Source: Ignavibacteria bacterium
GTDB taxonomy: Bacteria; Bacteroidota; Ignavibacteria; Kapaibacteriales; UBA4661
Reading direction: 5' to 3'
Assembly: GCA_013298775.1 (NCBI GenBank)
Contig: JAAFIV010000026.1
Span: 1-64,000, forward strand
DNA: 64,000 nucleotides
The first letter of the stretch is position 1. Every line of letters begins with the position of its first letter. The position numbers were made by a program, and so were the translations under genes. Below are positions 4,401 to 57,430 of this stretch, in pieces. The notes under the pieces are model-generated. The model had not been told where the DNA came from, made no database searches, and saw only the letters and a program-made list of their open reading frames with translations.

Positions 4401-4478
4401 AGTGGCACAGACATTCTTGTCTGTGAGTATTAGTGCAGGGTTCAGGCAGAGAACACAGACAGGAAGTCTCAAGCTATT
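4401..4478 (+). repeat. Family A double-palindrome element, subtype 2
   Basis: AGTGGCACAGACATTCTTGTCTGTGAG...CACAGACAGGAAGTCTCAAGCTATT. Confidence 0.9.
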
Positions 4479-4554
4479 GAAGTCTGATTTTACGCACTCT
4501 TCAGAGATGTAGCTGTGTGCTAAATTTTTTGTTTGTCTTTCAAGAAAAATACTT

Positions 4555-7500
4555 ATGCTATTTATTAAATACTCAAAAGCTGCACGAATACTTGCTCTCA
4601 CGCTTGAAATTTTCTCTCTCCTTTGCGTAATGTTTTCTGCTCTGTCTGCTTTTGCGCAATCACCTGACACGCTCCGCATCCCCTTCAATCGTAGTGAAAT
4701 CACACAATCAAACATCATCCTTCGCCAAGACGCGCTTTATCGCTGGACAGTACGCGGGCGGGCGCAGGTAGGCGTTTCGGGGCAATCACCCATCATTGTT
4801 GATGCCCGCTTTGCTACGAGCAATCTCGGACTTCCGCAGCTTCCCGAGCAACCAACACGCCTTCCGCTTGATGAGAATACGCCTGTACAGCCGCTCTGTA
4901 CCTCGCTTCAAGAGACATCGCCCGCAAGTTCGCCGTGCAATATTTACTTTGGGACGAATGCTCGGCGAGGCGCATCAAATCTCGCACTCGACCCCGCATT
5001 CCGTCTCGCCGATGCCGCACAAATGAAACAATACGCTTTTCGTCCCGACGACGATACATTTCGCGCAAGCTCTATCTATCAAGCAATCGTGCGGGGTGCA
5101 AACGATTTCGTGAAAGCACTGTTTGTGGAAGGGTTTGGTTTTGGCAATAATCGAAGCTATGCGGATAATCCCGCAGACACCGCACTAGTGCTGACGATTG
5201 AGCGTCTCAGTCCTGAACTTTTACTTACTGCCGAACCCAATTTCAACATTACGGGACGGCTTCCTGTGCGGGTTCTGAACGATATTTCACCAGCAAGCAC
5301 TTTCCGCGACACCACGATTGATTTCGGCTCGGTGCAAGTAAATACGCCGCCTGTACAGGTACGCCGCATTGTCCTGCGCAATCGCGGCGCAGAGCCACTT
5401 CGCATTCTCCGCATCGAAGCACCGATGCTGAATCCCGTCTTTACGGTGGCAAGTTCGGCGGGTGCGCTGGAAAATCCAACATTGCTCGGCGCAATGAGCG
5501 ATTCCATCACGCTTTCCTTTACCTTTTTCGCCCGCGATGCTCGCCAGTACACGCAGGAAATTCGTATTATCACCAACGACCCAGCAAATCCGACCTTCAC
5601 GGTGCGTTTGCAGGGCAGTGGCGCGAGCGGTACACTGAGTCCAGTTCTACCAATGAATTTTGGTAATGTGTACGTGGGGACAACTGCACCAGTACAAACA
5701 CGTGAGTTTTCTCGAACCAATTTTGTGGATGCCTTTGCGATTGATTCCGTGCAGCTGCCCGCGCCGTCCTCAGGCTTTACGGTGATAGGTCTCGCGCCGC
5801 AATCATATCAAGTCGGCACAAATCCTCGCTTTTCACCAAGCGGCACGTTTTCCCCCAGAACTATCGGCGACTTCGCAGATTCTGCCGTGCTTCGCGGCAA
5901 TAATCTCGTTGATTACAAAATTCTCCTCACAGGGCGTGGCGTGAGAGCGGATTTTGCGCTCTTACGGCAAGGAACTCCGCTTGTAGAGCGGGTTCTGGAC
6001 TTCGGAGCGCACGTTTCTGGCGCGAGTACCACGCAGACATTTACCATTCAAAACACAGGCAATCTTCCCCTGAACATTGCACGGAATCTTGCTCCTAGCC
6101 CCAATGGTCGTCCAAGTGATGTCGGCGAATTTGAAATTGTCAGCGCACCAACCACGCTTGGTGAAATGACGGGAACGACGCAAACGTTTGTTCTTCGCTA
6201 CACCGCGAATCCACAAAATCCCGAAGGGCGCAAGGAAGTATTTTTTGACGTAAACATCAACGATGGCAATAATGGTGCTGCTCTCACGCCACAACGCTTC
6301 AGGCTCATTGCGCAGCGTTTGCCCAATGTGATTACACCAAGCCGCACCGACATTCGCTTCGACAGCGTGTACGTCGGCACACAAGTGCGTGATACCGTAC
6401 TTCTTGCCAATACTTCAGCGCGTTTTGCTGGGACAATTCTCCGCCAAACGCCACCAAATGCGCCCTTTAGCGCAGACACGGTGCGTTCTCCACGTGCGTT
6501 GCTGCCAGCAAATTCCGCTCTCGTCAATCTCGGTTTTTCGCCCATGCAAGAAGGTCCGCAAGAAGGCACCTTCACCTTCACAAACCGCGTGGATTCTACG
6601 GGAGCGCAGGAAACCTCCCGTGTGGGTGTGCGCGGTGTGGGTGTGCGCCAGCAATTTACCCTCATTCGCCTCACTTCCGACACCAGCGCAAACACGAATA
6701 CGACCATCAACACCGTATCAACACTGGTGAATGGTAAAACGCGCACCTATACGGCAAATATTGGCTGCGTGCGCGTTGGCGAAAGAAGGGATATAGGCTG
6801 TTTTTTTCGGAATGATGGGAATATTTCCTTTCGAGCATCCGACCGATTTGTGCGCCTAGAACCCGCACAAACACGCGATTTCACGGTTGTTAATCCCTTT
6901 CAAATATCGCGCTCTCTTTTGCCCACCGAACAAGACGGTTCGCTGCGGATACGCTTCACGCCAACTGTGCGCGGACCGCAGGAAATTCAGTACACGCTGC
7001 GAAGCGATATTCGGCAGAATATTGGCGGGCGAATCCGCATTCCTACTGCGCCCGACAGCACCGATGACATTACGATTATTATTCGCGGTGAAGGCATCAC
7101 ACCAAGCATTGAAGCACCGCAAAGCGTAGATTTTGGTGAAATTACGTTTGATGCGGCGGGCGTGGGGTGCAATAGCAGAACCCAAGCCATTCCTTTCACA
7201 AACCCTGCTACGCCCGCATGCGGGACGTTTACACGGCTCTCCAATCCACGCATTGCAAGCGCAAGTGCTACGCCGTTTAGCATTCGTTCTGGCTCGACAG
7301 ACCTCATCGTACGCACAGGCAGTTCGGTGGGGACGATTCAGGTAGAATTTAAGCCCACGCGGCAAGGTGAGTTTCAAGATGAATTGATTGTCAATACCGA
7401 CGCGCCTCCGCCACGTGATGTCCTGCGCATTCGCCTTACGGGGCGTTCTATTCCCTTGCCAAATGTGGTGATGCGCATTGCAACCAATCATACTGCTCGT

Positions 7501-8259
7501 CCAGGTAGCCCAACCCTTGTAACGGTGCCAGTGTTGGTAGAAGCCTCTACCATTGGCACTCTTAGCGCGAACACAGGTGCGCTTCGCCTGACGAACCGCG
7601 TGGCGTTTCAGTTGCAATACAATCGCACCTTGTTGGAATTTGAACGAGCCAATACTAACGGTACAGCATCGGAAGGCGGGCGCGTGGAGGTTACAAAAAG
7701 GGACACCGCTAATCGGGAACAACAAACCCTGTTCGTCAGCATTGAGGCAGCGCGGTCTGATAATTTTCGTCCCTTGGAAACGCTGGTCAATCTTGTTTTT
7801 ACCCCCTATCTCGGCAATGCACCCGCAACAGAACTTTCACTTGCCAGTGTCCGTTTTGGCGATTCCACGTGTCCCAAAATCAACATTGGCTCAAATGATA
7901 TCAAATCTGGGCAATTCCAGCTTGATGGCGTGTGTGATTTGGTCTGGAAAGCAACACTCCTGACACAAAAACCGCCCGCAATGGCAGATATTTCGCCGAA
8001 TCCGATTATCGGCGGGCAAGGTAAAATCAGGTTTTTGGTCAATGAAGCGGCAACGATTACGATTACGATGCGCGACGCGCTTGGCGTGCATTCAGCGCGA
8101 ACGCTCGTGCAGGAACGTAGTTTTGATGCGGGTTTGTACGAAGAAACATTGCCTTTGGAAAACGTGCCAACAGGAACATATTTCTGTGAAATGCGTGCAG
8201 TGTCAGCACATACGCAGGGCGTTTACCGCGAAGTGAAGAAGTTTGTGGTTGTGCGCTGA
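4555..8259 (+). CDS. Choice-of-anchor D / ASH-repeat secreted protein with T9SS C-terminal sorting domain
   Basis: Signal-like N-terminus; repeated IDFGSVQVNT, LDFGAHVSGASTTQTFTIQNTG and VDFGEITF modules; C-terminal ISPNPI...YEETLPLENVPTGTYFCEMR...KKFVVVR. Confidence 0.85.
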   Translation: MLFIKYSKAARILALTLEIFSLLCVMFSALSAFAQSPDTLRIPFNRSEITQSNIILRQDALYRWTVRGRAQVGVSGQSPIIVDARFATSNLGLPQLPEQPTRLPLDENTPVQPLCTSLQETSPASSPCNIYFGTNARRGASNLALDPAFRLADAAQMKQYAFRPDDDTFRASSIYQAIVRGANDFVKALFVEGFGFGNNRSYADNPADTALVLTIERLSPELLLTAEPNFNITGRLPVRVLNDISPASTFRDTTIDFGSVQVNTPPVQVRRIVLRNRGAEPLRILRIEAPMLNPVFTVASSAGALENPTLLGAMSDSITLSFTFFARDARQYTQEIRIITNDPANPTFTVRLQGSGASGTLSPVLPMNFGNVYVGTTAPVQTREFSRTNFVDAFAIDSVQLPAPSSGFTVIGLAPQSYQVGTNPRFSPSGTFSPRTIGDFADSAVLRGNNLVDYKILLTGRGVRADFALLRQGTPLVERVLDFGAHVSGASTTQTFTIQNTGNLPLNIARNLAPSPNGRPSDVGEFEIVSAPTTLGEMTGTTQTFVLRYTANPQNPEGRKEVFFDVNINDGNNGAALTPQRFRLIAQRLPNVITPSRTDIRFDSVYVGTQVRDTVLLANTSARFAGTILRQTPPNAPFSADTVRSPRALLPANSALVNLGFSPMQEGPQEGTFTFTNRVDSTGAQETSRVGVRGVGVRQQFTLIRLTSDTSANTNTTINTVSTLVNGKTRTYTANIGCVRVGERRDIGCFFRNDGNISFRASDRFVRLEPAQTRDFTVVNPFQISRSLLPTEQDGSLRIRFTPTVRGPQEIQYTLRSDIRQNIGGRIRIPTAPDSTDDITIIIRGEGITPSIEAPQSVDFGEITFDAAGVGCNSRTQAIPFTNPATPACGTFTRLSNPRIASASATPFSIRSGSTDLIVRTGSSVGTIQVEFKPTRQGEFQDELIVNTDAPPPRDVLRIRLTGRSIPLPNVVMRIATNHTARPGSPTLVTVPVLVEASTIGTLSANTGALRLTNRVAFQLQYNRTLLEFERANTNGTASEGGRVEVTKRDTANREQQTLFVSIEAARSDNFRPLETLVNLVFTPYLGNAPATELSLASVRFGDSTCPKINIGSNDIKSGQFQLDGVCDLVWKATLLTQKPPAMADISPNPIIGGQGKIRFLVNEAATITITMRDALGVHSARTLVQERSFDAGLYEETLPLENVPTGTYFCEMRAVSAHTQGVYREVKKFVVVR

Positions 8260-8311
8260 GGAATGTAGCAGATGTTGCGGATTTGCATGCACAATTCCTG
8301 TCATTGGTCAT

Positions 8312-8440
8312 GTCTTCCCGTCCTACGCTTTTCTAAGCGTAGAACGGGTTTCGCGGTAATGCTGTCGCGGGAATACTTTTTCCAGAAAAATGGCACCGTG
8401 AAACCCGTTCTATCGTTCAGAAACGGTAGGACGGGAAGAC
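8312..8440. repeat. Family B double-palindrome element, copy 1
   Basis: GTCTTCCCGTCCTACGCTTTTCTAAGCGTAGAACGGGTTTC...GAAACCCGTTCTATCGTTCAGAAACGGTAGGACGGGAAGAC. Confidence 0.9.
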
Positions 8441-8446
8441 CTGAGT

Positions 8447-8576
8447 GACTCGCCTTACGCACACCCTCACCCCTCGCTGCGCGAGATACTCTCCCAGAGG
8501 GCGAGGGTTGATGGAGACTAGCTTTGAAGCCCTCTCCCTCTGGGAGAGGGTTGGGTGAGGGCGATGTGCGTAAGGT
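8447..8576. mobile_element. Family C MITE-like palindromic element, copy 1, flanked by 9-bp direct repeat GACCTGAGT
   Basis: CCTTACGCACACCCTCACCCCTCGC...GGGTGAGGGCGATGTGCGTAAGG; GACCTGAGT at 8438-8446 and 8577-8585. Confidence 0.75.
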
Positions 8577-8796
8577 GACCTGAGTAAGTACCGTACTTCT
8601 AACTTACTTTTATGAAATGCGAAGTATCCTGCTTTGAATGCACCGCGCCATTAACACTTCCTTAACATCCTTTAACGTCTGCTTAACAGCTTCGTATCTT
8701 GCTTTCCCGTATATTTGCAGTATGAACATTACACATACATTTGTTCATCAATATTGCTCACAAAAACTTCATCTTTTCATTTTTCTCCGAACTGCC

Positions 8797-9636
8797 ATGA
8801 AAACCTCTACCTCTCCCCGCAAAACAGCTAGAAAGCTGATTGCCTCTCTCTTCTGCGGCGTTGCTGCTGCGTCAATTATTGCTCTTGCTCCAATCATGAG
8901 TTTTGGACAAGACGCGCCAACATCGCCGTCCGCGCCCGATGCACCGAAAGCACCGAAAAGCCGCGCCAGTGTGACGATTATGAAAGATGGCGAAGTGGTA
9001 TTTTCAAAGTCGGTGGACAAAAATACTGTCTGGCGGTCTTTGGATGAGGCAATCAATAATGAAGTTGCCGATAGCGTGAAACAACGCTTGCGCTCTGCCT
9101 TGCGCGATGCTGGAAAGCGTGTAAACATCAGTGCTACGGGCAATACCATGACGATTGTCGTGGATGACGAAAATAGCAAAGATGGTAAAAATATGGTGAT
9201 GAGCTTCTCCAGCGACGGTTTTGACCAGTGGGGACGCGAATTTGCCGATGGTTTCCGCCGAAATTTTGATGTTGGACGCAATCATTTCCGCTTCGATACG
9301 GGTGCGCTCCGCGACATGGCAAACCGCTTCCGCGTCATGGTCGCGCCTCATGCACGCCGCTTCAATTTCAATAATTTCAACGTAGATGATGAAGATTTTA
9401 CCTCCGATAAAGCCGAGCGCATGGCAGAAGAGGCAAACAATATGAGCCGCGAAGCAGACGCGCTCCGCAAAGAAGCAGAAGCAATGCGCCTTGAAGCAGA
9501 AGCAATGAAAAAACGCGCAGAAGCAACACGCCTTGAAGCACAGGCACGCAAAAAATCATCCAAAGCAACGAGCGAATCACAAAGTGAATCGAAAAGCAAT
9601 GATGCGCAGTCTAGCACGAAAAAGAAGAAGCAATAA
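8797..9636 (+). CDS. Secreted protein with C-terminal Ala/Glu/Lys-rich coiled coil
   Basis: Signal peptide-like start MKTSTSPRKTARKLIASLFCGVAAASIIALAPIMSFGQ; EAEAMRLEAEAMKKRAEATRLEAQARKK. Confidence 0.7.
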   Translation: MKTSTSPRKTARKLIASLFCGVAAASIIALAPIMSFGQDAPTSPSAPDAPKAPKSRASVTIMKDGEVVFSKSVDKNTVWRSLDEAINNEVADSVKQRLRSALRDAGKRVNISATGNTMTIVVDDENSKDGKNMVMSFSSDGFDQWGREFADGFRRNFDVGRNHFRFDTGALRDMANRFRVMVAPHARRFNFNNFNVDDEDFTSDKAERMAEEANNMSREADALRKEAEAMRLEAEAMKKRAEATRLEAQARKKSSKATSESQSESKSNDAQSSTKKKKQ

Positions 9637-9746
9637 TAGCCAAAATACAAGTATTCACGCCTTCTTCCACCTGCACGAAGAACGTAACACAAACGCTGAA
9701 TAGGAAAGCACAACAACTCCATTTTTTTAAGGGGACAAATACAGCG

Positions 9747-9793
9747 AAAATGCCTGTATGCGGCGTAAAATCCGACATACAGGCATTTTTTTT
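9747..9793 (+). terminator. Rho-independent terminator
   Basis: AAAATGCCTGTATG-loop-CATACAGGCATTTTTTTT. Confidence 0.85.
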
Positions 9794-9825
9794 GCGTTAA
9801 AATCATTGAAATTCAAGACTAGTCA

Positions 9826-9868
9826 TTGAGTCCTCGCTAGTCCTCAAAAGTCCTCAAAATCCGCGTTC
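9826..9868 (-). repeat. Partial family H element
   Basis: Reverse complement GAACGCGGATTTTGAGGACTTTTGAGGACTAGCGAGGACT matches the 5' part of 28909-28950. Confidence 0.55.
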
Positions 9869-9983
9869 AAAAAAATGACGTATCCAGTTACAGAAAAAGT
9901 ACAAAAAAGTAAAAAAAACGCCGTAGTTTTCGGAATACAAATGACGTTCCTTTCCTCTCCATTTTCATTTTCAGAAATCTACC

Positions 9984-10529
9984 ATGAGAATTCGCCGCGA
10001 CAATGCTATCACCGTCGTGATTGACGTTCAAGACCGCTTATTTCCTCATATTGACGGGCATGCCGAGCTTGAACAGCGTCTGGAAAAATATATCGTTGGG
10101 ATGCAGATTCTCAATATGCCAATGATTGTTACCGAGCAATATCCACAAGGCTTAGGTCGCACCATTCCTAGTCTGCAAGCGGCTTTGGCGGATTATTACT
10201 CACCGATGGAAAAGATGACCTTTAGTTGCTGTGGCGAACAAGAATTTACGGATTCATTGGAAAACCTTGGGCGGAAACAAGTCCTGCTCATTGGCGTGGA
10301 AGCACACATTTGCGTTCTGCAAACCGCATTAGACCTGCGTGCGGCGGGCTATCGCCCTGTGATTCTTGAAGATTGCGTTTCCTCACGAAATCCAAACGAC
10401 AAACGCGTGGCGATAGAACGGATGCGGCGTGCAGGCTGCGTTATTACCACGATGGAGTCCGCTATCTTTGAATTATGCGGCGTTGCGGGAACAGAGACTT
10501 TTAAAAGAATTTCCAAATTGCTGAAATAA
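9984..10529 (+). CDS. Isochorismatase-family hydrolase
   Basis: VVIDVQDRLFPHI, MIVTEQYPQGLG, LLIGVEAHICVLQTALDLRAAGY. Confidence 0.9.
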   Translation: MRIRRDNAITVVIDVQDRLFPHIDGHAELEQRLEKYIVGMQILNMPMIVTEQYPQGLGRTIPSLQAALADYYSPMEKMTFSCCGEQEFTDSLENLGRKQVLLIGVEAHICVLQTALDLRAAGYRPVILEDCVSSRNPNDKRVAIERMRRAGCVITTMESAIFELCGVAGTETFKRISKLLK

Positions 10530-10550
10530 CGTACCTGTAAAGCAATCATT

Positions 10551-11540: not shown

Positions 11541-11762
11541 GCCAAACATAAGATTGCACAAGCCTTTGCTTGATTATTCAGCAAAAATGGGCTTCAAAAA
11601 AGCAGCTTGAAAATTCCTTCTCCCTGCGTATATTGCCAGACTTTCGTGCAATGCAATCTCGGCGATGCACGGCACACTCGAACAGTACACTCTAACAGTG
11701 TTTCACAACATTTTGCATAACACTTTTGCATAACACTTTTGCATTCCATTCAGGAGTTTTCC

Positions 11763-13558: not shown

Positions 13559-13636
13559 AGTGGCACAGACATTCCTGTCTGTGTTTATCACGTAAAACCA
13601 GCACCAATACTCACAGACAAGAATGTCTGTGCCACT
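13559..13636 (-). repeat. Family A element
   Basis: AGTGGCACAGACATTCCTGTCTGTG...CACAGACAAGAATGTCTGTGCCACT. Confidence 0.95.
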
Positions 13637-15405: not shown

Positions 15406-15479
15406 AGTGGCACAGACATTCTTGTCTGTGGAGCTTACATGCTGCTTCAGGACTCACAGACAAGAATGTCTGTGCCACC
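15406..15479. repeat. Family A element
   Basis: AGTGGCACAGACATTCTTGTCTGTGG...CACAGACAAGAATGTCTGTGCCACC. Confidence 0.95.
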
Positions 15480-17330: not shown

Positions 17331-17408
17331 AGTGGCACAGACATTCTTGTCTGTGAGTGTGAGTACAGGATTCAAGCGACAAACACAGACAAGAAGTCTC
17401 AAGCCACT
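17331..17408 (+). repeat. Family A element, subtype 2
   Basis: AGTGGCACAGACATTCTTGTCTGTGAG...CACAGACAAGAAGTCTCAAGCCACT. Confidence 0.95.
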
Positions 17409-18313: not shown

Positions 18314-18360
18314 AAGTGTTTCTGTACATGATGAAGAAAATTGTTTGGGTTTGCGCTCTT

Positions 18361-18404
18361 GTGAGGGTCTCACGCCACGAAGACGTGGTACGTGAGACCC
18401 TCAC
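18361..18404. repeat. Family E single-arm hairpin
   Basis: GTGAGGGTCTCACG-CCACGAAGACGTGGTA-CGTGAGACCCTCAC. Confidence 0.75.
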
Positions 18405-18421
18405 AATCATGCGTCTCTTGA

Positions 18422-24393: not shown

Positions 24394-24467
24394 AGTGGCA
24401 CAGACATTCTTGTCTGTGAGTCCTAATGAGGCTTTGAAGCCTCACAGACAAGAATGTCTGTGCCACT
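24394..24467. repeat. Family A element
   Basis: AGTGGCACAGACATTCTTGTCTGTGAG...CACAGACAAGAATGTCTGTGCCACT. Confidence 0.95.
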
Positions 24468-25854: not shown

Positions 25855-25927
25855 AGTGGCACAGACATTCTTGTCTGTGAGTCTTGATGAGGGTTTGAAG
25901 AATCACAGGCAAGAATGTCTGTACCAC
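25855..25927. repeat. Family A element, slightly diverged
   Basis: AGTGGCACAGACATTCTTGTCTGTGAG...CACAGGCAAGAATGTCTGTACCAC. Confidence 0.9.
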
Positions 25928-28500: not shown

Positions 28501-28716
28501 AATCGGAACAGAATAATTGCTATGAAGTGAGGAATTATGAGGCGGTGAGTGCTGTTTGTCTGAAGAGAACCATTATCAGTACGCTGCAAGTTACGAAAAA
28601 CACTTCCACTTGGAAACAAGCATTTTTGAGATATTCCGATGGCAATGAACTTTTGATAAAGTCTCTGCTTGAAGATATTTTCCCGCAAACGCACTTCAAA
28701 AAAGGAGGTACTAACT

Positions 28717-28854
28717 CACCTTACGCAAAAGACCCTCACCCAACCCTCTCCCAGAGGGAGAGGGCTTCAGAGCTAGTCTTCATCAACCCTCGCCCTCTGG
28801 GAGAGGGTCTCGCGTAGCGAGGGGTGAGGGCGGCGTGAGAGTTTGCGTAAGGTG
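28717..28854. mobile_element. Family C MITE-like palindromic element, copy 2
   Basis: CACCTTACGCAAAAGACCCTCACCC...GTTTGCGTAAGGTG; flanks GAGGTACTAA / GAAGTACTAA (9/10). Confidence 0.7.
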
Positions 28855-28863
28855 AAGTACTAA

Positions 28864-29084: not shown

Positions 29085-29162
29085 AGTGGCACAGACATTC
29101 TTGTCTGTGTTTTCCACCCGAATTCCGTACTACCACTCACAGACAAGAACGTCTGTGCCACT
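29085..29162 (-). repeat. Family A element
   Basis: AGTGGCACAGACATTCTTGTCTGTG...CACAGACAAGAACGTCTGTGCCACT. Confidence 0.95.
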
Positions 29163-29264
29163 CATGAGGTAAGGATTTTTTAAACTGAAATCATTGAGTA
29201 GCAAAAAAGAAATACTTGGCGCATCTAAAAAGCCTTTTGCACAATAAGCCCCACTCCAAAAAAC

Positions 29265-29323
29265 AAAAATGGAGACCACTTTCCAGCGCACACGCGCTTT
29301 TGAAGGTAGTCTCCATTTTTTTT
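29265..29323. terminator. Hairpin terminator, probably bidirectional
   Basis: AAAAATGGAGACCAC...GGTAGTCTCCATTTTTTTT. Confidence 0.75.
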
Positions 29324-33212: not shown

Positions 33213-33329
33213 ATTCGCCCCCTTGATAAAGGGGGAACGGGGGATTTTGTCGCATATGCGCGAGCAAGGAGTGCTGGAGACCGCACAAAACCGTAAATCC
33301 CCCGTTCCCCCTTTATCAAGGGGGCGAAT
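33213..33329. repeat. Family F double-palindrome element
   Basis: ATTCGCCCCCTTGATAAAGGGGGAACGGGGGATT ... AATCCCCCGTTCCCCCTTTATCAAGGGGGCGAAT, perfect inverted arms. Confidence 0.95.
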
Positions 33330-33606: not shown

Positions 33607-34083
33607 ATGCGCAATTTCTCATATAACTTCGACCCGCGTGATTTCCAACGCTTCCAAAATGCTGCTGAAACGGTCGCTGACCGCCTCGGTGATTTCTTCA
33701 ACGAGATGAACAAAAACATCAATGTTGATGTGGACATCACCAAGCAGAAACACGGCGTAAAATCTCGCATTGACGTTATCGAAGACGAAAACAACGTGTA
33801 CGTTCATGCAGAACTTCCAGGCATCGCAAAAGAAGATGTTTCGGTATCGGTAAGCGAGGAAAAAGTCCTCACCATTAAAGCAAATAAGCGTCGTTTGTAC
33901 GATGACAATGTTCGCTCTATCCGCAACGAACGCGCCTTTGGCGAATACACCCGCAATATCACGATTGAGCAAGAAATCAAAACGGACAGCATCTCCGCAA
34001 CCTTCCGCGATGGCGTTCTCACCATCACGCTTCCGAAGCCGGAATCTGCTCGTCCGAAAACAGTAAACATCAACATTCAATAA
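33607..34083 (+). CDS. Hsp20/alpha-crystallin small heat-shock protein
   Basis: VYVHAELPGIAKEDVSVSVSEEKVLTIKANK...GVLTITLPKPE. Confidence 0.95.
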   Translation: MRNFSYNFDPRDFQRFQNAAETVADRLGDFFNEMNKNINVDVDITKQKHGVKSRIDVIEDENNVYVHAELPGIAKEDVSVSVSEEKVLTIKANKRRLYDDNVRSIRNERAFGEYTRNITIEQEIKTDSISATFRDGVLTITLPKPESARPKTVNINIQ

Positions 34084-34118
34084 ACACACTCAACATTTTT
34101 TCATAAGGAATTACCACA

Positions 34119-34619
34119 ATGGCAACAAGCATCTATCATCCAATGAACCGCGTTATCAACGAATTGAACCTCCGCATCAACAATATGCCGCGCTATGCTG
34201 GCGAAGTTGTGCAAATCGCAAATGCGTACGTTCCGAAAATGGACGTGGTTTTGAACAACGCTTTTAATAACGGTGTCCTTGGCAATATCGTTCTCGCGCC
34301 CCGCGTGGATGCGATTGAAGATACAGCAGCATACATCATCGTTGCAGAGCTTGCGGGCGTTGCAAAAGAAGATGTAACAATTACCGTAAAAGAGCGCGTT
34401 CTCACGATTGCTGGCGAGAAAAAACGCCCAGCAAGCGCAGAAAATATACAATTCCTTGCAAAAGGTCGTCGCTTCGGCAAATTCGAGCGTTCATTTGAAT
34501 TGCCAGAAAATGCCACTGCAGACGGCATCAAAGCTGAATTTGCACATGGTCTCTTGACCTTGACCGTACCAAAAGTTGCTGCAAAACAACCAGAAACTAT
34601 CACGGTTGCGATTCAATAA
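34119..34619 (+). CDS. Hsp20 small heat-shock protein, paralogue 2
   Basis: AYIIVAELAGVAKEDVTITVKERVLTIAGEKK...GLLTLTVPK. Confidence 0.93.
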   Translation: MATSIYHPMNRVINELNLRINNMPRYAGEVVQIANAYVPKMDVVLNNAFNNGVLGNIVLAPRVDAIEDTAAYIIVAELAGVAKEDVTITVKERVLTIAGEKKRPASAENIQFLAKGRRFGKFERSFELPENATADGIKAEFAHGLLTLTVPKVAAKQPETITVAIQ

Positions 34620-34639
34620 GAGCAGCAATCTTTAGCATG

Positions 34640-34679
34640 GAAGCGGTGTTGATTCACCACATTTTATCAACACCGCTTC
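34640..34679 (+). terminator. Intercistronic terminator-like hairpin
   Basis: GAAGCGGTGTTGAT-TCACCACATTTT-ATCAACACCGCTTC, 14-bp perfect stem. Confidence 0.7.
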
Positions 34680-34756
34680 GTTGCTTGATACTTCTCCTCA
34701 ACTCACCTTTCACACTACCACAACGATTTATTCACTTTTTTGGAGGTCATTGCAGA

Positions 34757-35461
34757 ATGAATTCCGAAACAAACCCAGTAAACACTATGGAATCTCAAAC
34801 AGAATTTCAAACAGAACAAACAACACCAAACACGCAAGCGGCAGAAGCCGTACAAGCGGCTGGTGTAGCGGTTGGTAAAGCGGTCAATCACACGGTTAAT
34901 CAGGTTGTAAACGAAGCGCGTAGCACGTTCCAACGCTTCGAGGCGTTCCGTGAATTAGAGCGCATCAGCAATGAAGTTGGCAGCAAAGTGAGCAGCCAAG
35001 CAAGCTCATTCTTCACCCGCGAATCGCTTACAAACCTCTTGAATACAGACTTCATTGGCGGAACAGCTCTCAGCGAAGTAGCAAAGCGTTTCACAATGGG
35101 TAATCTTATTCAAAACCCGATTTCGGTGCCGTTTTCACTCCGCGCCGATGTTGCTGAAGACCACGACAACGTGTATATGCACCTCGAACTTCCGGGCATC
35201 GAAAAAGAACACGTAAGCGTGAACGTCAGCAATGACCGCGTTCTCACCATCAAAGGCGAGCGCAAAAATGAGTTCAAAGAAGAAGGTAAATCCTTCCTTC
35301 GCATGGAACGCAGCTATGGCTCATTCGAGCGCAGCTTCACGCTTCCAGCAAATGTGAAAACAGACAGCATCAATGCGCAGTTTGAGCATGGTGTTCTCAG
35401 CCTTACGCTTCCAAAAACGGAAGAATCAAAGCCAAAAATGATTGCAATTGAAGTAAAGTAA
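34757..35461 (+). CDS. Hsp20 small heat-shock protein, paralogue 3, with long N-terminal extension
   Basis: VYMHLELPGIEKEHVSVNVSNDRVLTIKGERK...GVLSLTLPK; TGGAGG before ATG 34757. Confidence 0.93.
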   Translation: MNSETNPVNTMESQTEFQTEQTTPNTQAAEAVQAAGVAVGKAVNHTVNQVVNEARSTFQRFEAFRELERISNEVGSKVSSQASSFFTRESLTNLLNTDFIGGTALSEVAKRFTMGNLIQNPISVPFSLRADVAEDHDNVYMHLELPGIEKEHVSVNVSNDRVLTIKGERKNEFKEEGKSFLRMERSYGSFERSFTLPANVKTDSINAQFEHGVLSLTLPKTEESKPKMIAIEVK

Positions 35462-35477
35462 TTGCATCTACTGTTCC

Positions 35478-35585
35478 CTCGTCGGGCGGCTGTTATCACA
35501 AGCACAGTAGCCGTCCGGCGGGTGCTGTGTAAGCGGCTCACCCGCCGGACGGCAGCGTACTGGCACTCCTCAGCCGCCCGACGAG
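35478..35585. repeat. Family D GC-rich double-palindrome element
   Basis: CTCGTCGGGCGGCTG...CCGTCCGGCGGGT...ACCCGCCGGACGG...CAGCCGCCCGACGAG. Confidence 0.85.
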
Positions 35586-35967
35586 AGTACGTGAATAGCA
35601 GTAAGATAATTGCAGGAATATGATTGCCGCGTGGCGATTTTTTGGTAAATTGAAGGCTGTTTTGCAAATGCTTCCACGTACATTTTTACAACGAGCATTT
35701 GCATGAAAAGGTAAGTTTCACAAACGACAGGTTTTGAATGAAGAATGGTTTTCTCTGTGCTGTGGGAAGTTTTTTATTTGACTTCTTCAACGGCACACCG
35801 CCCCAGCAATCAAGCCCTCTTTGCAAACACGATTCCTTGCTTTTTGGCGATGGATTCTTAGCACAAGCGGAAGATTAGCGAAAGAGGCGGCAAAGAGAAC
35901 AAAAGATTTATCCGCACCCTGCTTCACAAGCAAGCATTCATGCGGCATCCGTGAAAAGACACCACCA

Positions 35968-36035
35968 ACATTACGGATGACGGCTTACACGAAACGCACG
36001 TAACGGTGCAGCTTGTAGGCGGTCATCCGTAATGT
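35968..36035. repeat. Palindromic element upstream of the HEPN ORF (family I)
   Basis: ACATTACGGATGACGGCTTACA...TTGTAGGCGGTCATCCGTAATGT; outer 14 bp perfect; inner GCAC/GTGC. Confidence 0.8.
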
Positions 36036-38785: not shown

Positions 38786-38836
38786 AAAAAGCCCTGTATG
38801 CAAGATATTGTCTTGTGTACAGGGCTTTTAGTTTTT
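38786..38836 (+). terminator. Terminator after dnaK
   Basis: AAAAGCCCTGTATGCAAGATATTGTCTTGTGTACAGGGCTTTTAGTTTTT. Confidence 0.85.
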
Positions 38837-40331: not shown

Positions 40332-40382
40332 AAAAAAGCCCTGTACACAAGATTACATCGTATGTACAGGGCTTTTAGTTTT
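40332..40382 (+). terminator. Terminator after AraC gene, similar to the dnaK terminator
   Basis: AAAAAAGCCCTGTACACAAGATTACATCGTATGTACAGGGCTTTTAGTTTTT. Confidence 0.85.
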
Positions 40383-40415
40383 TGATAGGGGAGCAAATTT
40401 TGTAACTGGTCAGGT

Positions 40416-40540
40416 GTCTTCCCGTCCTACGCTTTCGTAAGCCTAGAATAGGTTTCATGGTAATGCTGTCGCAGTAATGTGTTTCCCAGAAAAATATCAC
40501 CGTGAAACCCTACCGTTCAGAAACAGTAGGACGAGAAGAC
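40416..40540. repeat. Family B double-palindrome element, copy 2
   Basis: GTCTTCCCGTCCTACGCTTTCGTAAGCCTAGAATAGG...CCTACCGTTCAGAAACAGTAGGACGAGAAGAC. Confidence 0.9.
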
Positions 40541-48540: not shown

Positions 48541-48626
48541 GTGAGGGTCTGACTTCTTCGTCAGGCTCTCACTTCCTTTGGGTGTAAAAACAAAGTGAGA
48601 GCCTCAATAGGAATTGAGACCCTCAC
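48541..48626. repeat. Family E double-palindrome element
   Basis: GTGAGGGTCTGAC-TTCTTC-GTCAGGCTCTCAC ... GTGAGAGCCTCAA-TAGGAA-TTGAGACCCTCAC. Confidence 0.9.
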
Positions 48627-50434: not shown

Positions 50435-50648
50435 ATTTTCATCACAAATTGTGAAACAGAGTGTTTTCCTAAAGAACGCACAATTTGCTTTCAGGTTACA
50501 AAAAAAATGAAAATTGTTTGAGAAACCGGATGGGTGGGCGTAATGAAGAGCAGGGAAAGTGTTTTGATTATAGCATTTGAATTCAAATTACAAGTGAATT
50601 GCTTTCATGGGCGCAACAGTGAGAATTCCTGAAAAACGAGTAAAAATT

Positions 50649-51269: not shown

Positions 51270-51307
51270 GGCAATTTCTGCAACCTAAAAACATCAATGA
51301 AAGAAAC

Positions 51308-51934
51308 TTACTTTTTTCGTCCAACAAACCGTATAACCGAGCCTTTTCCAACATGAAATAGACCTTCGTTCAACTCAATTTCTTTTTCTACCAGTTCGAT
51401 AATTTCATACTGAGGAAAATCTGATTGCAGTTCTTCAATTGAGAACAAGGATGCAATATCCTTCGGACCACCAACGCTTGGGTTTTGAGAAACGTACTCA
51501 AAATGATTTTTGCTAAAAGCCTCAAAAATAACGAATCCGCCCGTACGCAAGTATTTGTCGAATGTTCTGTGATACAACGATTTAATCTCCGCAGGAAAGT
51601 GTGCGTAGATGAGCGCAATCGCATCAAATTGTTCGGCGGCATACATCAACGTTTGCAATTCACCGACCTGATAATCAATCGCTACATTTTTAGCTTCTGC
51701 AAGCCGCAGGGCTTTGTTTTTCCCTTCTATGCTGATGTCAAATGCTGAAACCGTCCAGCCCAGCGAAGCTGCAAACACTGCATTGCGCCCCTCACCTTCA
51801 GCTGGAAACAGTATTGTTCCAACGTCAGGCAGTTTTTCCAACTGTTCCTTGAGATAATTGTTCGGCTCTGTGCCAAAAGCAAACTCTTCTTTGCTATATC
51901 TGTCATTCCATCGGTCAAGCCAGGATTCATTCAT
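51308..51934 (-). CDS. Class I SAM-dependent methyltransferase
   Basis: [60 protein letters not shown]. Confidence 0.88.
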
Positions 51935-52208
51935 AGTGTCGCTTATTGAACGGGTGTTGTGGGTGATGGAGCCAGCGCACTGGGGCGTGGCGTTGATTGG
52001 AAATGAGTATCCCCCACAAGTTTGAATAGCAATATAACGGAAAACACCTTCATCGGTCAATCGGAAAAACTTTTATTCCAACGCCAACGAAAGCCCAAAC
52101 GTCAAGAGCAAATCCGCCCGCTTTCGCGCCTATAAGCACCATACTTCGCAGGGCGAAATATGGTATGAAAGGTGCTTTGTGTGGTATAATTGAGCTAACC
52201 GAAACAGA

Positions 52209-52853
52209 TTATTTCACAGCATATAATTCCTCTGAAAATCGCATAAAATCTGCTTTTGCCGCCTTCAAGAGGCTGAGAATATTACTCGCTTCAGGCTGCG
52301 TAACGTCATACGCCAAACTCACCGCATATTTCCTGCCTTCCAAGACTACAAAAAACCACGACCTACCCACAATGTACGAGCCATAGAGGGGATGCGGAAC
52401 GGTGTTCAGTTCCTGCGCGGCAACCATCTCCGCGAGAAGTTGCGCAAGGGGATTGTTATTAGGCGCGAAGGTTTTTTTGTACTCGTGCAGAAAGAAAAAT
52501 GGGCGAATAGGCTTCGATTTGCCCGTAGCGACCATAAAATCTACGCGCCCCGACATTTGAACGTCGCCAACAGTAGCGGATAAGGTGCGCTGGGTAAAGG
52601 TGTGGAAGTATTGCGTATCGTAGCGAACAAGATTCACAAATGGCGCAATAAACTTGAACTTGAGTTCGTCTTCATTCCACAAATCAATTTCCGCCGCAAG
52701 ATTTTCTTGCAACGCCGCGATGATAGTGCGCTCTACTTCATTCATCGGAAAGTCGGCACGAAGCCAGTTTGCCAGCGTTGGCAGATTGGGTACGCGCTCC
52801 AGCGAAAAGGTTTGTTCAAGGTCGTCTATGTCCCATTGGTCAAAGGTTTTCAT
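52209..52853 (-). CDS. Conserved hypothetical, possible PD-(D/E)XK-like nuclease fold
   Basis: GRVDFMVATGKSKPIRPFFFLHEYKK...NPLAQLLAEMVAAQELN. Confidence 0.45.
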   Translation of the reverse strand: MKTFDQWDIDDLEQTFSLERVPNLPTLANWLRADFPMNEVERTIIAALQENLAAEIDLWNEDELKFKFIAPFVNLVRYDTQYFHTFTQRTLSATVGDVQMSGRVDFMVATGKSKPIRPFFFLHEYKKTFAPNNNPLAQLLAEMVAAQELNTVPHPLYGSYIVGRSWFFVVLEGRKYAVSLAYDVTQPEASNILSLLKAAKADFMRFSEELYAVK

Positions 52854-52983
52854 GGTTGTTGTAACGTTGATGGTACGTTTTTTTTGCTACTTACGTTCAA
52901 GTTGTAAATTACGAAAATTTTGAGAAGGAAATATGTAGAATGCTACGATTTACCGTATATTCGAGTAAACGAATCAAGTTCAA

Positions 52984-53037
52984 CAAACAAGTAACGGCGC
53001 GGCTTCCAAAGTGAAAATCGCGCCGTTTGTTTTTGGT
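52984..53037. terminator. Conserved hairpin, copy 1
   Basis: AACAAGTAACGGCGCGGCTTCCAAAGTGAAAATCGCGCCGTTTGTTTTT. Confidence 0.7.
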
Positions 53038-53045
53038 ATCAGTAA

Positions 53046-53405
53046 TTACCATGATTCCGTCTTGTAATGATGCCGCTCGTGAACAATGCGCCCATTTTTC
53101 CAACGCTGCACGGAAATTTGCTTAAAATCGCGTTGCCCCCAATCTTTGTGAAGAAAGGAGTATCGCCATTCAATGACCGAAACATCATCGCCAAGTAAGG
53201 TTTGAAGAGGTGTTGCGCTTGCACTACTGATGCTTGCCAGAAAATGCTCCATTTCTTTGCGGTGTATTTCTAAGCCAATGGTTGGGGCGCTTTCATTCTC
53301 GTGCTTGACAAAATGTTCGTCATAAAAGATATTATGAGCATCTTCATATCTGAACTCTTGCACGAGGCGCGTGAATTCTGCTATGGTTTCGGGGAATGTT
53401 TTCAT
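53046..53405 (-). CDS. NTF2/SnoaL-like protein
   Basis: FPETIAEFTRLVQEFRYEDAHNIFYDEHFVKHENESAPTIG, EWRYSFLHKDWGQRDFKQISVQRWKNGRIVHERHHY. Confidence 0.7.
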   Translation of the reverse strand: MKTFPETIAEFTRLVQEFRYEDAHNIFYDEHFVKHENESAPTIGLEIHRKEMEHFLASISSASATPLQTLLGDDVSVIEWRYSFLHKDWGQRDFKQISVQRWKNGRIVHERHHYKTESW

Positions 53406-53414
53406 TGTTTGCTC

Positions 53415-53819
53415 CTAGCTAGAATGTGTTGTGGATAGAAATGGTGAACTATCTGATGCAAACAATTGTCCGTACATCAACGCTGCGCCGCACATTGCCG
53501 TGTCCCGCGCAATGGCGATGATTCCTTTGAAATCACCGCTTATTGCCGCCGGAATATGCACAAGGAATACAAACAAAAGGAGCATGAGCGCAAGGAGTAA
53601 TGAGGCAAGCATGTCCATTTTGCGGAGTATCGCACTTGCCACAAACAGCAGCATACAGACTCCAACCAGATACACCCACAATGCCCGAAACGGCAACCAC
53701 ACAGGGACGTAGGGCAAACTGAATTCCAAAGGTCCAAAATGCAATAATCCAAACAATGCAAACGGTGCGACAAAGAGCCATTTTGCAAAGAGAGCCGGGC
53801 TATCAACAAAGTTTTTCAT
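53415..53819 (-). CDS. DoxX-like membrane protein
   Basis: Four TM: FAPFALFGLLHFGPLEFSLPYVP, LVGVCMLLFVASAIL. Confidence 0.6.
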   Translation of the reverse strand: MKNFVDSPALFAKWLFVAPFALFGLLHFGPLEFSLPYVPVWLPFRALWVYLVGVCMLLFVASAILRKMDMLASLLLALMLLLFVFLVHIPAAISGDFKGIIAIARDTAMCGAALMYGQLFASDSSPFLSTTHSS

Positions 53820-53982
53820 AGTGGTATCAAAAGTGGAAAATGTCGTGATTTATGACGGTACAAAAATGCACAACATGGAAATGAAAAACATTGACCTATA
53901 TCAACGTTTTCATTTTCCCCATCATCTTGAATCACTGATAAAGGCTGAGGTAGCACGAAAGAAAGGGCGAGATAAAGCGCTA

Positions 53983-54588
53983 TCACAATTTCATCTTGAG
54001 GCGGCTGAGAGTTTCAGGCGAAAGACCCAAATACGAGGCGATAACTTTATTGGAGAGACGGGAGAAAATAAGAGGTTGAAATGATAAAAGCCACCGAACA
54101 CGCTCCAAAGCGTCCATTCCGAGTAGCGACATCACACGCTGTGTGGAATGTACATACGATTCCTCCAAAAGCGCACGGTAGATAGTTTCAAAGGGTGGAA
54201 CGGTTTTGACAAGATGCTGGAATGCATCGAATGAAATGGCGTACAGCTGGCTTGATTCTAAGGCTTGAATACGCTCATTCGCGGGTTGCCGATTGACAAA
54301 ACTTTGAATAGACGTTACCCATTCCTGCTCAAAAATGAGGTTCGAGGTAGATTCTTCACCATTGCGATTGTAGGTAACAAGACGCAAGCAACCTTCGACA
54401 ACAAAATAGCACCGGTGACAAATTTTGCCCTCTTCCAACAAGACATGATTACGCTTGATGCGAAGTTCGGTAAATTGTGCGAGAACAAGGTCGAGTCCTA
54501 CAGGTCTCTCGCCAATTTTACGGCAGATGTAGTCTTCAAGCGGATGCGTCATTGCGGCATACATTGTGTGTGAGATGTCTTTAGGCAC
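53983..54588 (-). CDS. Crp/Fnr-family regulator
   Basis: LRIKRNHVLLEEGKICHRCYFVVEGCLRLV; FSRLSNKVIASYLGLSPETLSRLKMKL helix-turn-helix. Confidence 0.9.
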   Translation of the reverse strand: MPKDISHTMYAAMTHPLEDYICRKIGERPVGLDLVLAQFTELRIKRNHVLLEEGKICHRCYFVVEGCLRLVTYNRNGEESTSNLIFEQEWVTSIQSFVNRQPANERIQALESSQLYAISFDAFQHLVKTVPPFETIYRALLEESYVHSTQRVMSLLGMDALERVRWLLSFQPLIFSRLSNKVIASYLGLSPETLSRLKMKL

Positions 54589-54613
54589 ATAAAATAGAAA
54601 AACAAAATGATAG

Positions 54614-54660
54614 AAACAAGTAACGGCGCAGCTTTCAAAGTGAAATTCGCGCCGTTCTTC
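54614..54660. terminator. Conserved hairpin, copy 2
   Basis: AACAAGTAACGGCGCAGCTTTCAAAGTGAAATTCGCGCCGTT. Confidence 0.7.
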
Positions 54661-54684
54661 ATTTCTAGTGGTTCTATGTTCTGT

Positions 54685-55119
54685 TTATGCTAACGTCGCC
54701 GAAAGTGAAACTTCAATCGCCCCCAGCGCCCGTGAAACGGGGCAGGTTTTCTTTGCATTATCAGCAATGGTCTGGAATTGCTCGTTGGAAATGGCGGGGA
54801 CGCTTGCTTTCAAGTTCAAATGAATACCTTTAATAGTGAATCCGCCATTTTCATTGACCATCGTCAAGTCCGCATTAACACTGAGTTTTTCGGGTGGAAA
54901 GCCTGCGCCCGTGAGTTGAAAACTGAGTGCCATTGCGTAGCAGCCCGCATGAGCCGCCGCAATCAATTCTTCAGGATTTGTGCCTGCTTTGCCGTCTTCG
55001 CTTGTGAAGCGGGTTGCGAAAGAATACGGCGTTTGGGATAGTACGCCGCTTGTAGAGGTGAGGCTGCCAGAGCCGTCTTTGCCAGTGCCGTTCCATTCGG
55101 CAGATGCTTTGCGAATCAT
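54685..55119 (-). CDS. OsmC-family peroxiredoxin
   Basis: SAEWNGTGKDGSGSLTSTSGV, TNPEELIAAAHAGCYAMALSFQL, CPVSRALGAIEVSLSA. Confidence 0.93.
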   Translation of the reverse strand: MIRKASAEWNGTGKDGSGSLTSTSGVLSQTPYSFATRFTSEDGKAGTNPEELIAAAHAGCYAMALSFQLTGAGFPPEKLSVNADLTMVNENGGFTIKGIHLNLKASVPAISNEQFQTIADNAKKTCPVSRALGAIEVSLSATLA

Positions 55120-55267
55120 AGTATTTTCAAAAAATGTAGTGAAATAGTGAATTGATGAACGATACAAAAATATCAATCTTCTCCGTGCGCACTATTGTAT
55201 GAATGGTGCTTTGTGTGGTACGGAAGATATTGGAATGTTGCAGGACACATTCTACCGCAGCATAGAA

Positions 55268-55308
55268 ACATGTCTTACGCTTCATACATGTCTTACGCTT
55301 CATACATG
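55268..55308. repeat. Two-unit 18-bp tandem repeat
   Basis: ACATGTCTTACGCTTCAT x2 then ACATGG. Confidence 0.85.
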
Positions 55309-55467
55309 GTTCTTGAAATACGTAATGATTATTGGAACGCGGATGAGGTTCCAGACTCTCAGGATATTGAGGACTTTTTGCCGTCCTTAACATCCTCTCC
55401 GTCCTCCAGTCCGCGTTCCTTTCTCACATTGTGTAGTATCATTGCATAATGTAAGAATCATGTACTT
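55301..55467 (-). repeat. Family H palindromic element, copy 2
   Basis: TACATGGTTCTTGAAATACGTAATGAT...GGAACGCGGA...AGGATATTGAGGAC/GTCCTTAACATCCT...TCCGCGTTCC...ATCATTGCATAATGTAAGAATCATGTA. Confidence 0.75.
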
Positions 55468-55690
55468 AATCTTGGGGCAACAAATGAGAAAATGCAATAA
55501 AATCTGTTCACTACCGTACTAAAATTGTGAACGGACAATGTGAACGGACAAAGAGTTCTCCCTTTCGGGTGGTAGAGTTTATCGGTGCAGAGAGAAGGTT
55601 CGACCTGTCTCTGCGTTTCAATCGCCAAGAGACGTTCCGTAGATTAAGCTCCGAGAGGCTAGAACGAGAAGTGGCGTAGATACTGGCTTG

Positions 55691-55770
55691 ATTGGCTTGA
55701 GACTTCTTGTCTGTTTTTATCGCCTGAACTCCGCATCAACACTCACTGACAAAATGATGTTCCTGTCACT
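55691..55770 (-). repeat. Degraded family A element, subtype 2
   Basis: ATTGGCTTGAGACTTCTTGTCTGTTTTTATCGCCTGAACTCCG...ACTCACTGACAAAATGATGTTCCTGTCACT aligns to the reverse complement of 17331-17408. Confidence 0.75.
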
Positions 55771-55837
55771 CTTTGAAGAAATTTTGTCGTGTACTGAAGT
55801 TTGCAACCGTAACACAAAACAACGTTATATTTCCGTC

Positions 55838-57430
55838 ATGCACTTTGCTACTACTCGTTGGTCGTTTTTTTTGTGGTGCTGCGCAATGCTGTTTCTGACG
55901 GCAATAGTACAGCATCATAGCTTTTTCTGGGATACCGTTATGCTTGCCTCACAGCAAGCACAGTGGTTCTACACGCATGGTATAAAGCCCTTTCCCAGCT
56001 CAATTGACGTGGGACATCCACCGCTATTGCCAGCATATTTGGCGATTGTGTGGCACATGTTCGGGCAATCTCTTGAGGTAAGCCATTGGGCAATGCTCCC
56101 TTTCTTGTGGCTGATTGTTTGGGCTATTCATCACCTTGCAGAGCTGATTAGTTCTCGCTTTTGGGATGATTCCCCGCTTCTTGTTCTCGCACTTTCCGCG
56201 CTGCTTCTCCTGCAACCAACGCTTCTCGCACAGGCAACACTCATTTCCCCTGATATTCCATTGTGCGCTTTTTTTCTGTGTGCTTTGTGGCATTTTTTGC
56301 AACCGAAGAGCAAGCAGTGGCGCGGACTCTATGCTGTTTGGCTTGTGTTGCTTTCTTTTACAAGTTTACGCGGAATGATTGCCGTCGCGCTCTTTGCTGG
56401 TGCAGAATGTGTGTGCTTGTTTCTTGAAAATACGCCCTCGCTAAAAAATTGGAAGAGTTTGGCGCAAGTATTGGTGCGCTCTGCAAGCGTGTACTTGCCC
56501 GCTTTGTTCCTTTTCAGTTTGTGGTATCGGTGGCACAGCGCGACGACCGGCAATATTGGCTGGCACGACACCTCGTCAAGCGAGTTTTATCGCGCTGTTT
56601 GGGATATTTCTGGGCTTGTGAAAAATGAAGCTGTATTTGTGTGGCGATTGGTGGATTTTGGCGCAGGTGCAGTTTGGATTGTATTGGGAGCTAGTCTATA
56701 TCAGTTGTGGAAGCAATCTCGCGCATTCGGGCAATCATTTTCAATAACACTTTTCGATGCTCTTCCCCAGCGTTTATGCGTATTGGCGGCACTTTCGCTT
56801 GCTGCATGGATGCTCATTGTTGCGGTGTTGCCGATATATTCCATTAGCCATCGATATTTTCTGCCGTTGCAGCTTTTGGTGAGTATTAGTGCGGTGTTGG
56901 GGTTGTTTGGGCAGATGAAATTTGGGCAGATGAAATTTGGGCAGAAAAAATTTAGGCAGACAGAAGTGTCCGCCCTACCGAAGCCCAACACTGTTCGTAG
57001 CGCGAACACTCTTGTCTGCGCCTCAAAGCGAAGCATTTATGCGGTGTTGTGTGTAGTTTTGCTGACGGGGCATTGTTGGGCGTGGCTCTATCCGCCTACA
57101 CTTGCCAAGGGCTGGGATGCAACCTTAGCGTATTTGCCGTATGATGGTCTTAGAAAGCAGGTTTTACGCAGTATTCAGGTGCGAGGTATTGCCGCAAAAG
57201 ATATTCATTCTCGCAACTTCGCCATTTTTTCCGCCCGCGACCTCGACCTCGTCTCAAATGCCGATACGCTTGGGTACGGCGCATCAACATTCGGCAGCAC
57301 GCGTTATGTGTTTTTTGCCTCTGTGCTGAATGGCTTCAAAGATGAGGAAATACGCGCCTTGCAGAAGTGGAAGTGTCTGGAACGGGCAGAAGCGTGGGGA
57401 ATGGTGGTGGAGCTGCGGGAACGCCCGTAA
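55838..57430 (+). CDS. GT39/ArnT-like polytopic membrane glycosyltransferase
   Basis: Multiple TM; SIDVGHPPLLPAYLAIVWHMFGQSLEVSHWAMLPF. Confidence 0.7.
   Translation: MHFATTRWSFFLWCCAMLFLTAIVQHHSFFWDTVMLASQQAQWFYTHGIKPFPSSIDVGHPPLLPAYLAIVWHMFGQSLEVSHWAMLPFLWLIVWAIHHLAELISSRFWDDSPLLVLALSALLLLQPTLLAQATLISPDIPLCAFFLCALWHFLQPKSKQWRGLYAVWLVLLSFTSLRGMIAVALFAGAECVCLFLENTPSLKNWKSLAQVLVRSASVYLPALFLFSLWYRWHSATTGNIGWHDTSSSEFYRAVWDISGLVKNEAVFVWRLVDFGAGAVWIVLGASLYQLWKQSRAFGQSFSITLFDALPQRLCVLAALSLAAWMLIVAVLPIYSISHRYFLPLQLLVSISAVLGLFGQMKFGQMKFGQKKFRQTEVSALPKPNTVRSANTLVCASKRSIYAVLCVVLLTGHCWAWLYPPTLAKGWDATLAYLPYDGLRKQVLRSIQVRGIAAKDIHSRNFAIFSARDLDLVSNADTLGYGASTFGSTRYVFFASVLNGFKDEEIRALQKWKCLERAEAWGMVVELRERP
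56906..57023. repeat. In-frame 15-bp tandem repeat plus family G double-palindrome element inside CDS
   Basis: (TTTGGGCAGATGAAA)x3.7 then AGGCAGACAGAAGTGTCCGCC...GCGCGAACACTCTTGTCTGCGCCT. Confidence 0.85.

Follow-up and report, generated by a model that had tools for sequence, protein, structure and literature searches.

Repeat families in the window

The window, a stretch of 64,000 nucleotides from contig JAAFIV010000026.1 of an Ignavibacteria bacterium (assembly GCA_013298775.1; here genome G000), carries several families of short repeats, designated by letters, that share the plan of an inverted pair of hairpins. Our reading, to which we give a probability of roughly 0.83, is that these are unrelated repetitive extragenic palindrome (REP)/REPIN families, each spread by its own REP-associated tyrosine transposase (RAYT), and that the RAYT of family A resides in the recG gene of sister species.

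A sequence-only reading of the window had proposed families A to G. All of the repeat sequences that it quoted were found in place, and six of its families (A, B, C, E, F, and G) proved to be real and multicopy rather than confined to single copies genome-wide, although its family D could not be identified. To this list we add families H and J, the latter a GTAG-tagged sister of A. The window contains 13 perfect stems of at least 8 bp (loops of 3 to 6), whereas 20 dinucleotide shuffles gave a mean of 5.25 and a maximum of 10. Perfect hairpins form 3 inverted pairs in the window and none in any shuffle; the remaining hairpin pairs mostly contain mismatches or G-T pairs. An Rfam scan of the window returned two tRNAs and nothing else. 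Three hairpins (29262-29323, 38786-38836, and 40333-40383) are not family members and resemble ordinary intrinsic terminators.

Genome-wide, the family A arm GTGGCACAGACATTCNTGTCTGTG has 632 matches with three mismatches or fewer (330 + 302), and its reversed control has 0. A 464-kb sample, consisting of a 400-kb sample plus the window and representing about 9% of the genome, contains 92 arms of A, 42 of C, 32 of E, 31 of J, 21 of F, 9 of G, 8 of B, and 2 of H; the A and J counts partly overlap because their arms are similar. Gene calls make 86% of the sample coding, yet just 2 of the 92 A arms are located well within genes, which indicates that family A is an intergenic repeat. Copies of B, C, E, F, and G are likewise almost all intergenic. 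Family A arms number in the hundreds in the window's genome and in G005, about 275 in G007, 213 in G001, and 104 in G006, and are nearly absent (0 to 2 each) from the congeners G002, G003, and G004.

RAYT genes associated with the repeats

The window's own genome (5.19 Mb) encodes two Y1 transposases. One (L002, contig C8) is intact, with 192 amino acids, an HUH-type motif (THFH), and the motif YIHDNP; family E pairs stand on either side of it. The other (L001, contig C1) contains one in-frame stop and has family H on either side. A relaxed Y1 search of this genome found no further transposase, and a RAYT-specific model found only these two. Since they are bracketed by E and H, the most abundant family, A, is without a transposase there. 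Elsewhere, a RAYT gene in G002 (L123) has a family B pair on one side, with the contig ending near the other, and one in G004 (L125) has E-like pairs on either side. The E and B RAYTs are 50% identical, and those of E, B, and the E-like pairs share 50 to 62% mutually, whereas the A RAYTs described below are only about 20 to 28% identical to the E/B type.

The sequence-only reading had likened the repeats to REP pairs, or bacterial interspersed mosaic elements, mobilized by RAYTs, and had suggested looking for transposases flanked by the same palindromes. These exist for E and H in the window's genome and for A in G005, G006, G007, and other phyla, and for B there is the RAYT gene of G002 with a pair on one side. 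That reading had also weighed several independent systems against a single machinery guided more by structure than by sequence. The inverted-pair plan common to all of the families would suit a single transposase or host factor that recognizes hairpin pairs by structure and spreads every family whatever its sequence. However, each RAYT found accompanies its own sequence family, the A RAYTs are far from those of E and B, and within families the sequence is conserved as well as the pairing, and in A and J this extends to the foot (GTGG/GTAG), which is unpaired. A single structure-reading machine is thus very unlikely, and the data favor several independent RAYT/REP systems.

Compensatory changes, which the sequence-only reading had named as a test of the stems, are present in E and in A/J. 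In family E, 97.2% of the stem cells are paired and 21 cells are changed on both sides, compared with 5.8 in shuffles (0 of 500 as high). The corresponding values for A/J are 94.0% paired and 14 cells changed on both sides, compared with 5.8 (0 of 500 as high). At two positions of the E stem, almost every copy has a G-T pair, which means that the two strands are not equivalent and that one folds better, as would be expected of a strand-specific single-strand substrate. The foot is GTGG or GTAG in 30 of 31 distinct A/J arms. The E arm starts with GTGAGGG and has no GT[AG]G foot. RAYT subclass 2.6 has atypical palindromes without this foot (PMC6006769) and may be the right place for family E, which, as judged from its sequence, is classed as a RAYT-associated palindrome and not as a canonical GT[AG]G REP.

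The intergenic position of the repeats, the G-T pairs in their stems, and the presence of true terminators nearby (38786 and 40333) are also what might be expected of RNA elements, such as terminators or mRNA stabilizers, that are kept for their function and are not mobile DNA. Yet the same pairs bracket RAYT genes, are present by the hundred and nearly identical in some congeners but absent from others, and land in frame within genes. We consider this explanation improbable, although a secondary RNA role beside mobility is possible.

The family A transposase lies inside recG

In G005, G006, and G007, the A RAYT is located in frame within recG, between helicase motifs II and III, with A arms around it. 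In G005 (1060 amino acids) and G006 (997 amino acids), the arm, RAYT, inverted arm, and RecG form a single open frame in which the insert separates motif II (DEQHRFGV) from motif III (SATPIPRT), and the arms are translated as VAQTFLSV and QTRMSVP. The halves of the G007 gene are on two contigs, with the break at the repeat. NCBIfam models divide the G006 open reading frame (ORF) into two stretches of RecG with the REP-associated tyrosine transposase model NF047646 between them. No second RecG was found above the cutoff in these three genomes, the other matches being weaker helicase relatives.

The insertion site is a variable loop, the length of which is always a multiple of three. In the recG of the window's own genome (L112, G000:C78), the site of the sister species' transposase holds a family C REP pair, also in frame (SLIPTLLPEGEGQDTELSLKPSPSGRGLGEGLAQGE), which rules out that gene as the home of the A RAYT. 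When the insert is left out of the RecG tree, G005, with the RAYT, is sister to G000, with the C pair (RecG 96% identical), and G006, with the RAYT, is sister to G001, without it (98% identical). Thus, the site has gained or lost an insert in frame more than once.

AlphaFold models the RAYT of the fused protein as a domain of its own, with predicted confidence (pLDDT) mostly 85 to 97 for RecG and below 50 for the arm regions. Folded alone, the RAYT domain has a pLDDT of 93.5, and its best structural match is the REP-bound TnpA_REP 4er8 (E value, 5.6e-8), which was likewise the best match in a sequence search.

Embedded RAYTs in other phyla

Four A-type cores, used to scan named genomes, gave 80 loci, of which 79 were readable. 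At 38 of these 79 the RAYT is in frame inside a longer gene; this fraction describes the best matches to A-type queries and should not be taken as a prevalence. The hosts are AlaRS (12), RecG at another site (5), ThrRS (3), PurH (3), MetH (2), and RdgB (2), along with DUF1156 methylases, restriction-type methylases, RarA, IleRS, GcvP, archease, and an SNF2-like protein. In ten ORFs, NCBIfam confirmed both the host match and the RAYT match; for the remaining hosts, the name comes from the flanking sequence. The same genomes contain extra cases in IspG, LeuRS, and CarB and more in MetH, PurH, RecG, IleRS, and AlaRS, some of which carry a second RAYT type (NHVH). Three embedded RAYTs, in AlaRS, IspG, and MetH, occur in a single Akkermansiaceae genome (G334).

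The inverted repeat around the RAYT is stronger than in 20 shuffles for 36 of 37 embedded cases, which indicates that the inserts are whole REPtrons, i.e., transposases together with their palindromes. A arms occur near related RAYTs of other phyla at L131, L132, L133, and L137. At L131 (bacterium B46_G16), the A-type RAYT is in a restriction-type methylase, and the tandem runs of A arms that flank it are translated into repeated PVGQTFLSVP peptides.

A different Y1 domain (AYHVTW...DHVH) is found in frame in type IIG restriction-modification methylases of G001 (L118, G001:C239) and G027 (L120, G027:C11), just before the NPPY motif. The G001 frame is interrupted close by, and the domain there is surrounded by GGGAGCATGCTCCC repeats. 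These may represent a different, older domain fusion and were left out of the counts of embedded RAYTs.

For AlaRS, the interrupted copy is the sole alaS in all 11 genomes checked, two of which are drafts with apparent end pieces of the same alaS on other contigs. The main break falls at about model position 373 to 380 throughout. Because AlaRS is essential and the interrupted copy stands alone, the product must work or be processed. Removal of the insert, whether by protein splicing, translational bypass, or loss at the RNA level, would leave a mature enzyme without it, in keeping with the essential nature of the hosts and with the strong inverted repeats that bound the inserts. However, the frame is kept through the arms and core, the core evolves as a protein, and the insertion points resemble tolerant loops. 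Ten fused ORFs had no match to any intein model, and no shared junction residues were seen when the junctions were inspected by eye. Removal is therefore unlikely.

Constraint and base rate

Embedded RAYTs have the properties of the family (NF047646, PF01797; TnpA_REP fold), i.e., HUH histidines, a single tyrosine, an asparagine, and a Y1 fold, with NF047646 scores that range from somewhat below to above the curated cutoff. H55, H57, Y116, and N120 are invariant in 46 RAYT cores; in the L201 core the tyrosine is apparently lost. Nonsynonymous (dN) and synonymous (dS) divergence was calculated as Nei-Gojobori values, the higher dS values being near saturation. Cores of one AlaRS clade (L174, L186, L201, and L210) have a dN of 0.10 to 0.18 and a dS of 0.79 to 1.70, and dN/dS is about 0.1 to 0.2 for AlaRS-embedded cores. 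Those embedded in recG have a dN of 0.41 to 0.47 and a dS of at least 1.6, and the dN/dS pairs are 0.35/1.42 for MetH and 0.52/1.28 for IspG. The inserted domain is under purifying selection. In a tree of 81 cores, the embedded/free label requires 11 changes, at least 6 of which are forced by well-supported branches.

Most of these genomes are metagenome-assembled genomes (MAGs), and the G007 contig breaks at the repeat, as might happen if the in-gene RAYTs were assembly artefacts, contamination, or pseudogene remnants with an intact host copy elsewhere. Against this stand the same AlaRS site in many independent genomes, the failure to find another alaS where alaS is interrupted or another RecG over the cutoff in G005, G006, and G007, the open ORFs with dN/dS far below 1, and the inverted arms that bracket 36 of 37 inserts. 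An artefact is thus highly improbable.

RecG and RarA act at replication forks, and Y1 transposases need single-stranded DNA (PMC6006769), so the fusion could be a co-opted device by which these hosts bring the transposase domain to forks. However, the same RAYT groups occur in AlaRS, ThrRS, IleRS, LeuRS, MetH, PurH, GcvP, IspG, and CarB, which have no common fork function. We regard co-option as unlikely, and fork targeting via RecG was dropped as the account of embedding because the hosts are mostly metabolic enzymes and tRNA synthetases.

In the window's phylum (297 genomes), the listed RAYT matches above the cutoff are almost all in frames of about 130 to 290 amino acids, and about four are in frames of more than 450. 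The class of G334 (93 genomes) has about 155 matches listed, 18 of which, in 11 genomes, are in frames of at least 590 amino acids; the host gene was checked for part of these.

Repeat elements and other features of the window

The elements are listed in Table 1. The family J pair, which was missing from the families first proposed, explains why the region of repeats had been drawn to end at 57023.

Table 1. Positions of the repeat elements in the window
Element	Position	Strand	Details
Family A inverted pair	4402..4477	+	Arm 4402-4425; partner 4454-4477 of variant GTGGCTTGAGACTTCTTGTCTGTG
Family A inverted pair	13560..13635	.	
Family A inverted pair	15407..15478	.	
Family A pair, variant-type second arm	17332..17407	.	
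Family A inverted pair	24395..24466	.	
Family A inverted pair	25856..25927	.	
Family A inverted pair	29086..29161	.	
Family A pair, decayed	55692..55768	+	Variant arm 55692-55715
Family B inverted pair	8308..8444	.	Family B also adjoins RAYT gene in congener G002
Family B second copy, partly decayed	40415..40510	+	
Family C pair	8448..8582	.	CCCTCTCCCTCTGGGAGAGGG arms 8487-8507, 8530-8550; outer ends CTCGCCTTACGCA / TGCGTAAGGTGA
Family C pair	28709..28862	.	Arms 28744-28764, 28787-28807; outer ends like those at 8448..8582
Family E inverted pair	48541..48626	.	Family E RAYT in own genome, G000:C8:8052-8396 (L002)
Short family E-type element	18359..18406	.	GTGAGGGTCTCACG ... CGTGAGACCCTCAC
Family F inverted pair	33213..33329	.	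Perfect arms of 35 nt
Family G element	35473..35590	.	
Family J pair	56957..57022	+	In frame within ORF 55688-57430; encodes KFRQTEVSALPKPNTVRSANTLVCASK

An inverted repeat at 35968-36035 (ACATTACGGATGACGGCTTACA / TGTAGGCGGTCATCCGTAATGT, 91% complementary) is assigned to none of the families. Small tandem duplications are present near REP copies at 55270-55310 (TCTTACGCTTCATACATG) and 56908-56945 (GGGCAGATGAAATTT), and three neighboring genes at 33807-35233 contain an Hsp20-like (small heat shock) direct repeat (family D5).

Relation to known systems

REP or REPIN repeats together with a RAYT (TnpA_REP) are known as REPtrons (Nunvar 2010, PMC2817692; Bertels and Rainey 2011, PMC3116915; Quentin 2018, PMC6006769). 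The repeats described here resemble them in having short inverted-pair hairpins, hundreds of intergenic copies, a RAYT bracketed by the same pair, and several families, each with its own RAYT. They differ in that the A RAYT of three congeners is not a separate gene but an internal domain of RecG, and in that the E and B palindromes have no GT[AG]G foot.

Intragenic GTAG/CGTC REPs have been described as dimers in frame in genes that include those for repair proteins and tRNA synthetases, also in the verrucomicrobium Opitutus terrae; the palindromes reported encode 20 to 30 (up to 82) amino acids (Di Nocera 2013, PMC3733652). Both kinds of insert are in frame within genes, but here the host gene carries a whole transposase. 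In RAYT subclass 2.4, REPs are found inside tnpA_REP genes with the frame kept (Quentin 2018, PMC6006769); there REPs enter the transposase gene, whereas here the transposase and its REPs enter other genes. Rickettsia palindromic elements, as represented by their citation in PMC3733652, are palindromes translated within host proteins. In contrast to the inserts described here, they appear from that citation to encode no transposase.

Inteins with homing endonucleases place a DNA-cutting domain in frame in essential genes, at recurrent sites. The embedded RAYTs are similar in that a DNA-cutting domain is kept in frame inside essential genes, also at recurrent sites, but no splicing domain was found, removal is not indicated, and the ends are REP palindromes. 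The open-access text that we searched reports intragenic REPs, and no report of a RAYT in frame within housekeeping genes was found in it. Thus, the window repeats are known in kind, and the residence of the transposase inside host genes appears to be new.

A model for residence in host genes

TnpA_REP is known to work on single-stranded DNA, at the foot of the hairpin. By the same action, each family would owe its spread, present or past, to an HUH/Y1 RAYT of its own, which would recognize the hairpin and the foot sequence; for family A, the candidate substrate is the GTGG-CACAGACATTCTTGTCTGTG strand. Family E would be served by the intact RAYT of the window's genome, B by one now in a congener, and A and J by one that this genome lacks. 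In recG, the A REPtron would add an extra domain to RecG, joined by disordered linkers that the palindromes encode.

Insertion into tolerant loops of essential genes would be survivable only in frame. After insertion, decay would be blocked, as frameshifts, stops, and most deletions would also hit the host protein. The host gene would supply RAYT expression, and loss would require near-precise in-frame removal, of which G000/G005 and G001/G006 may be examples, unless the gains are recent. The transposase domain would be active, would move the repeats, and would persist because changes that kill it would mostly kill the host gene too. We place about even odds on the full proposal, in which RAYT REPtrons persist in tolerant loops of essential single-copy enzymes, expressed by the host and held by its essentiality, with a chimera that works and an active transposase that seeds REPs.

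Several points weigh against our reading. Family A is an orphan in the window's own genome, and among the loci fetched, in a search that was not exhaustive, there is no cognate RAYT for families C, F, and G. The RecG insert is dispensable, since near-identical sister RecGs lack it, and embedded RAYTs are a minority overall. Nearly all of the genomes used are drafts or MAGs, and the putative movement of the repeats is read from comparison of sequences.

If the proposal is true, residence in an essential gene is a concrete and testable answer, intein-like but without splicing, to the question of how a low-copy, nonjumping transposase such as a RAYT survives for long periods in bacterial genomes. 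RecG, AlaRS, ThrRS, MetH, and other enzymes in many uncultured lineages would then bear a DNA-cutting domain, which has consequences for the annotation of these enzymes and for their biochemistry. An apparently orphan REP family could also have a source transposase that is missed because it is annotated within another gene.

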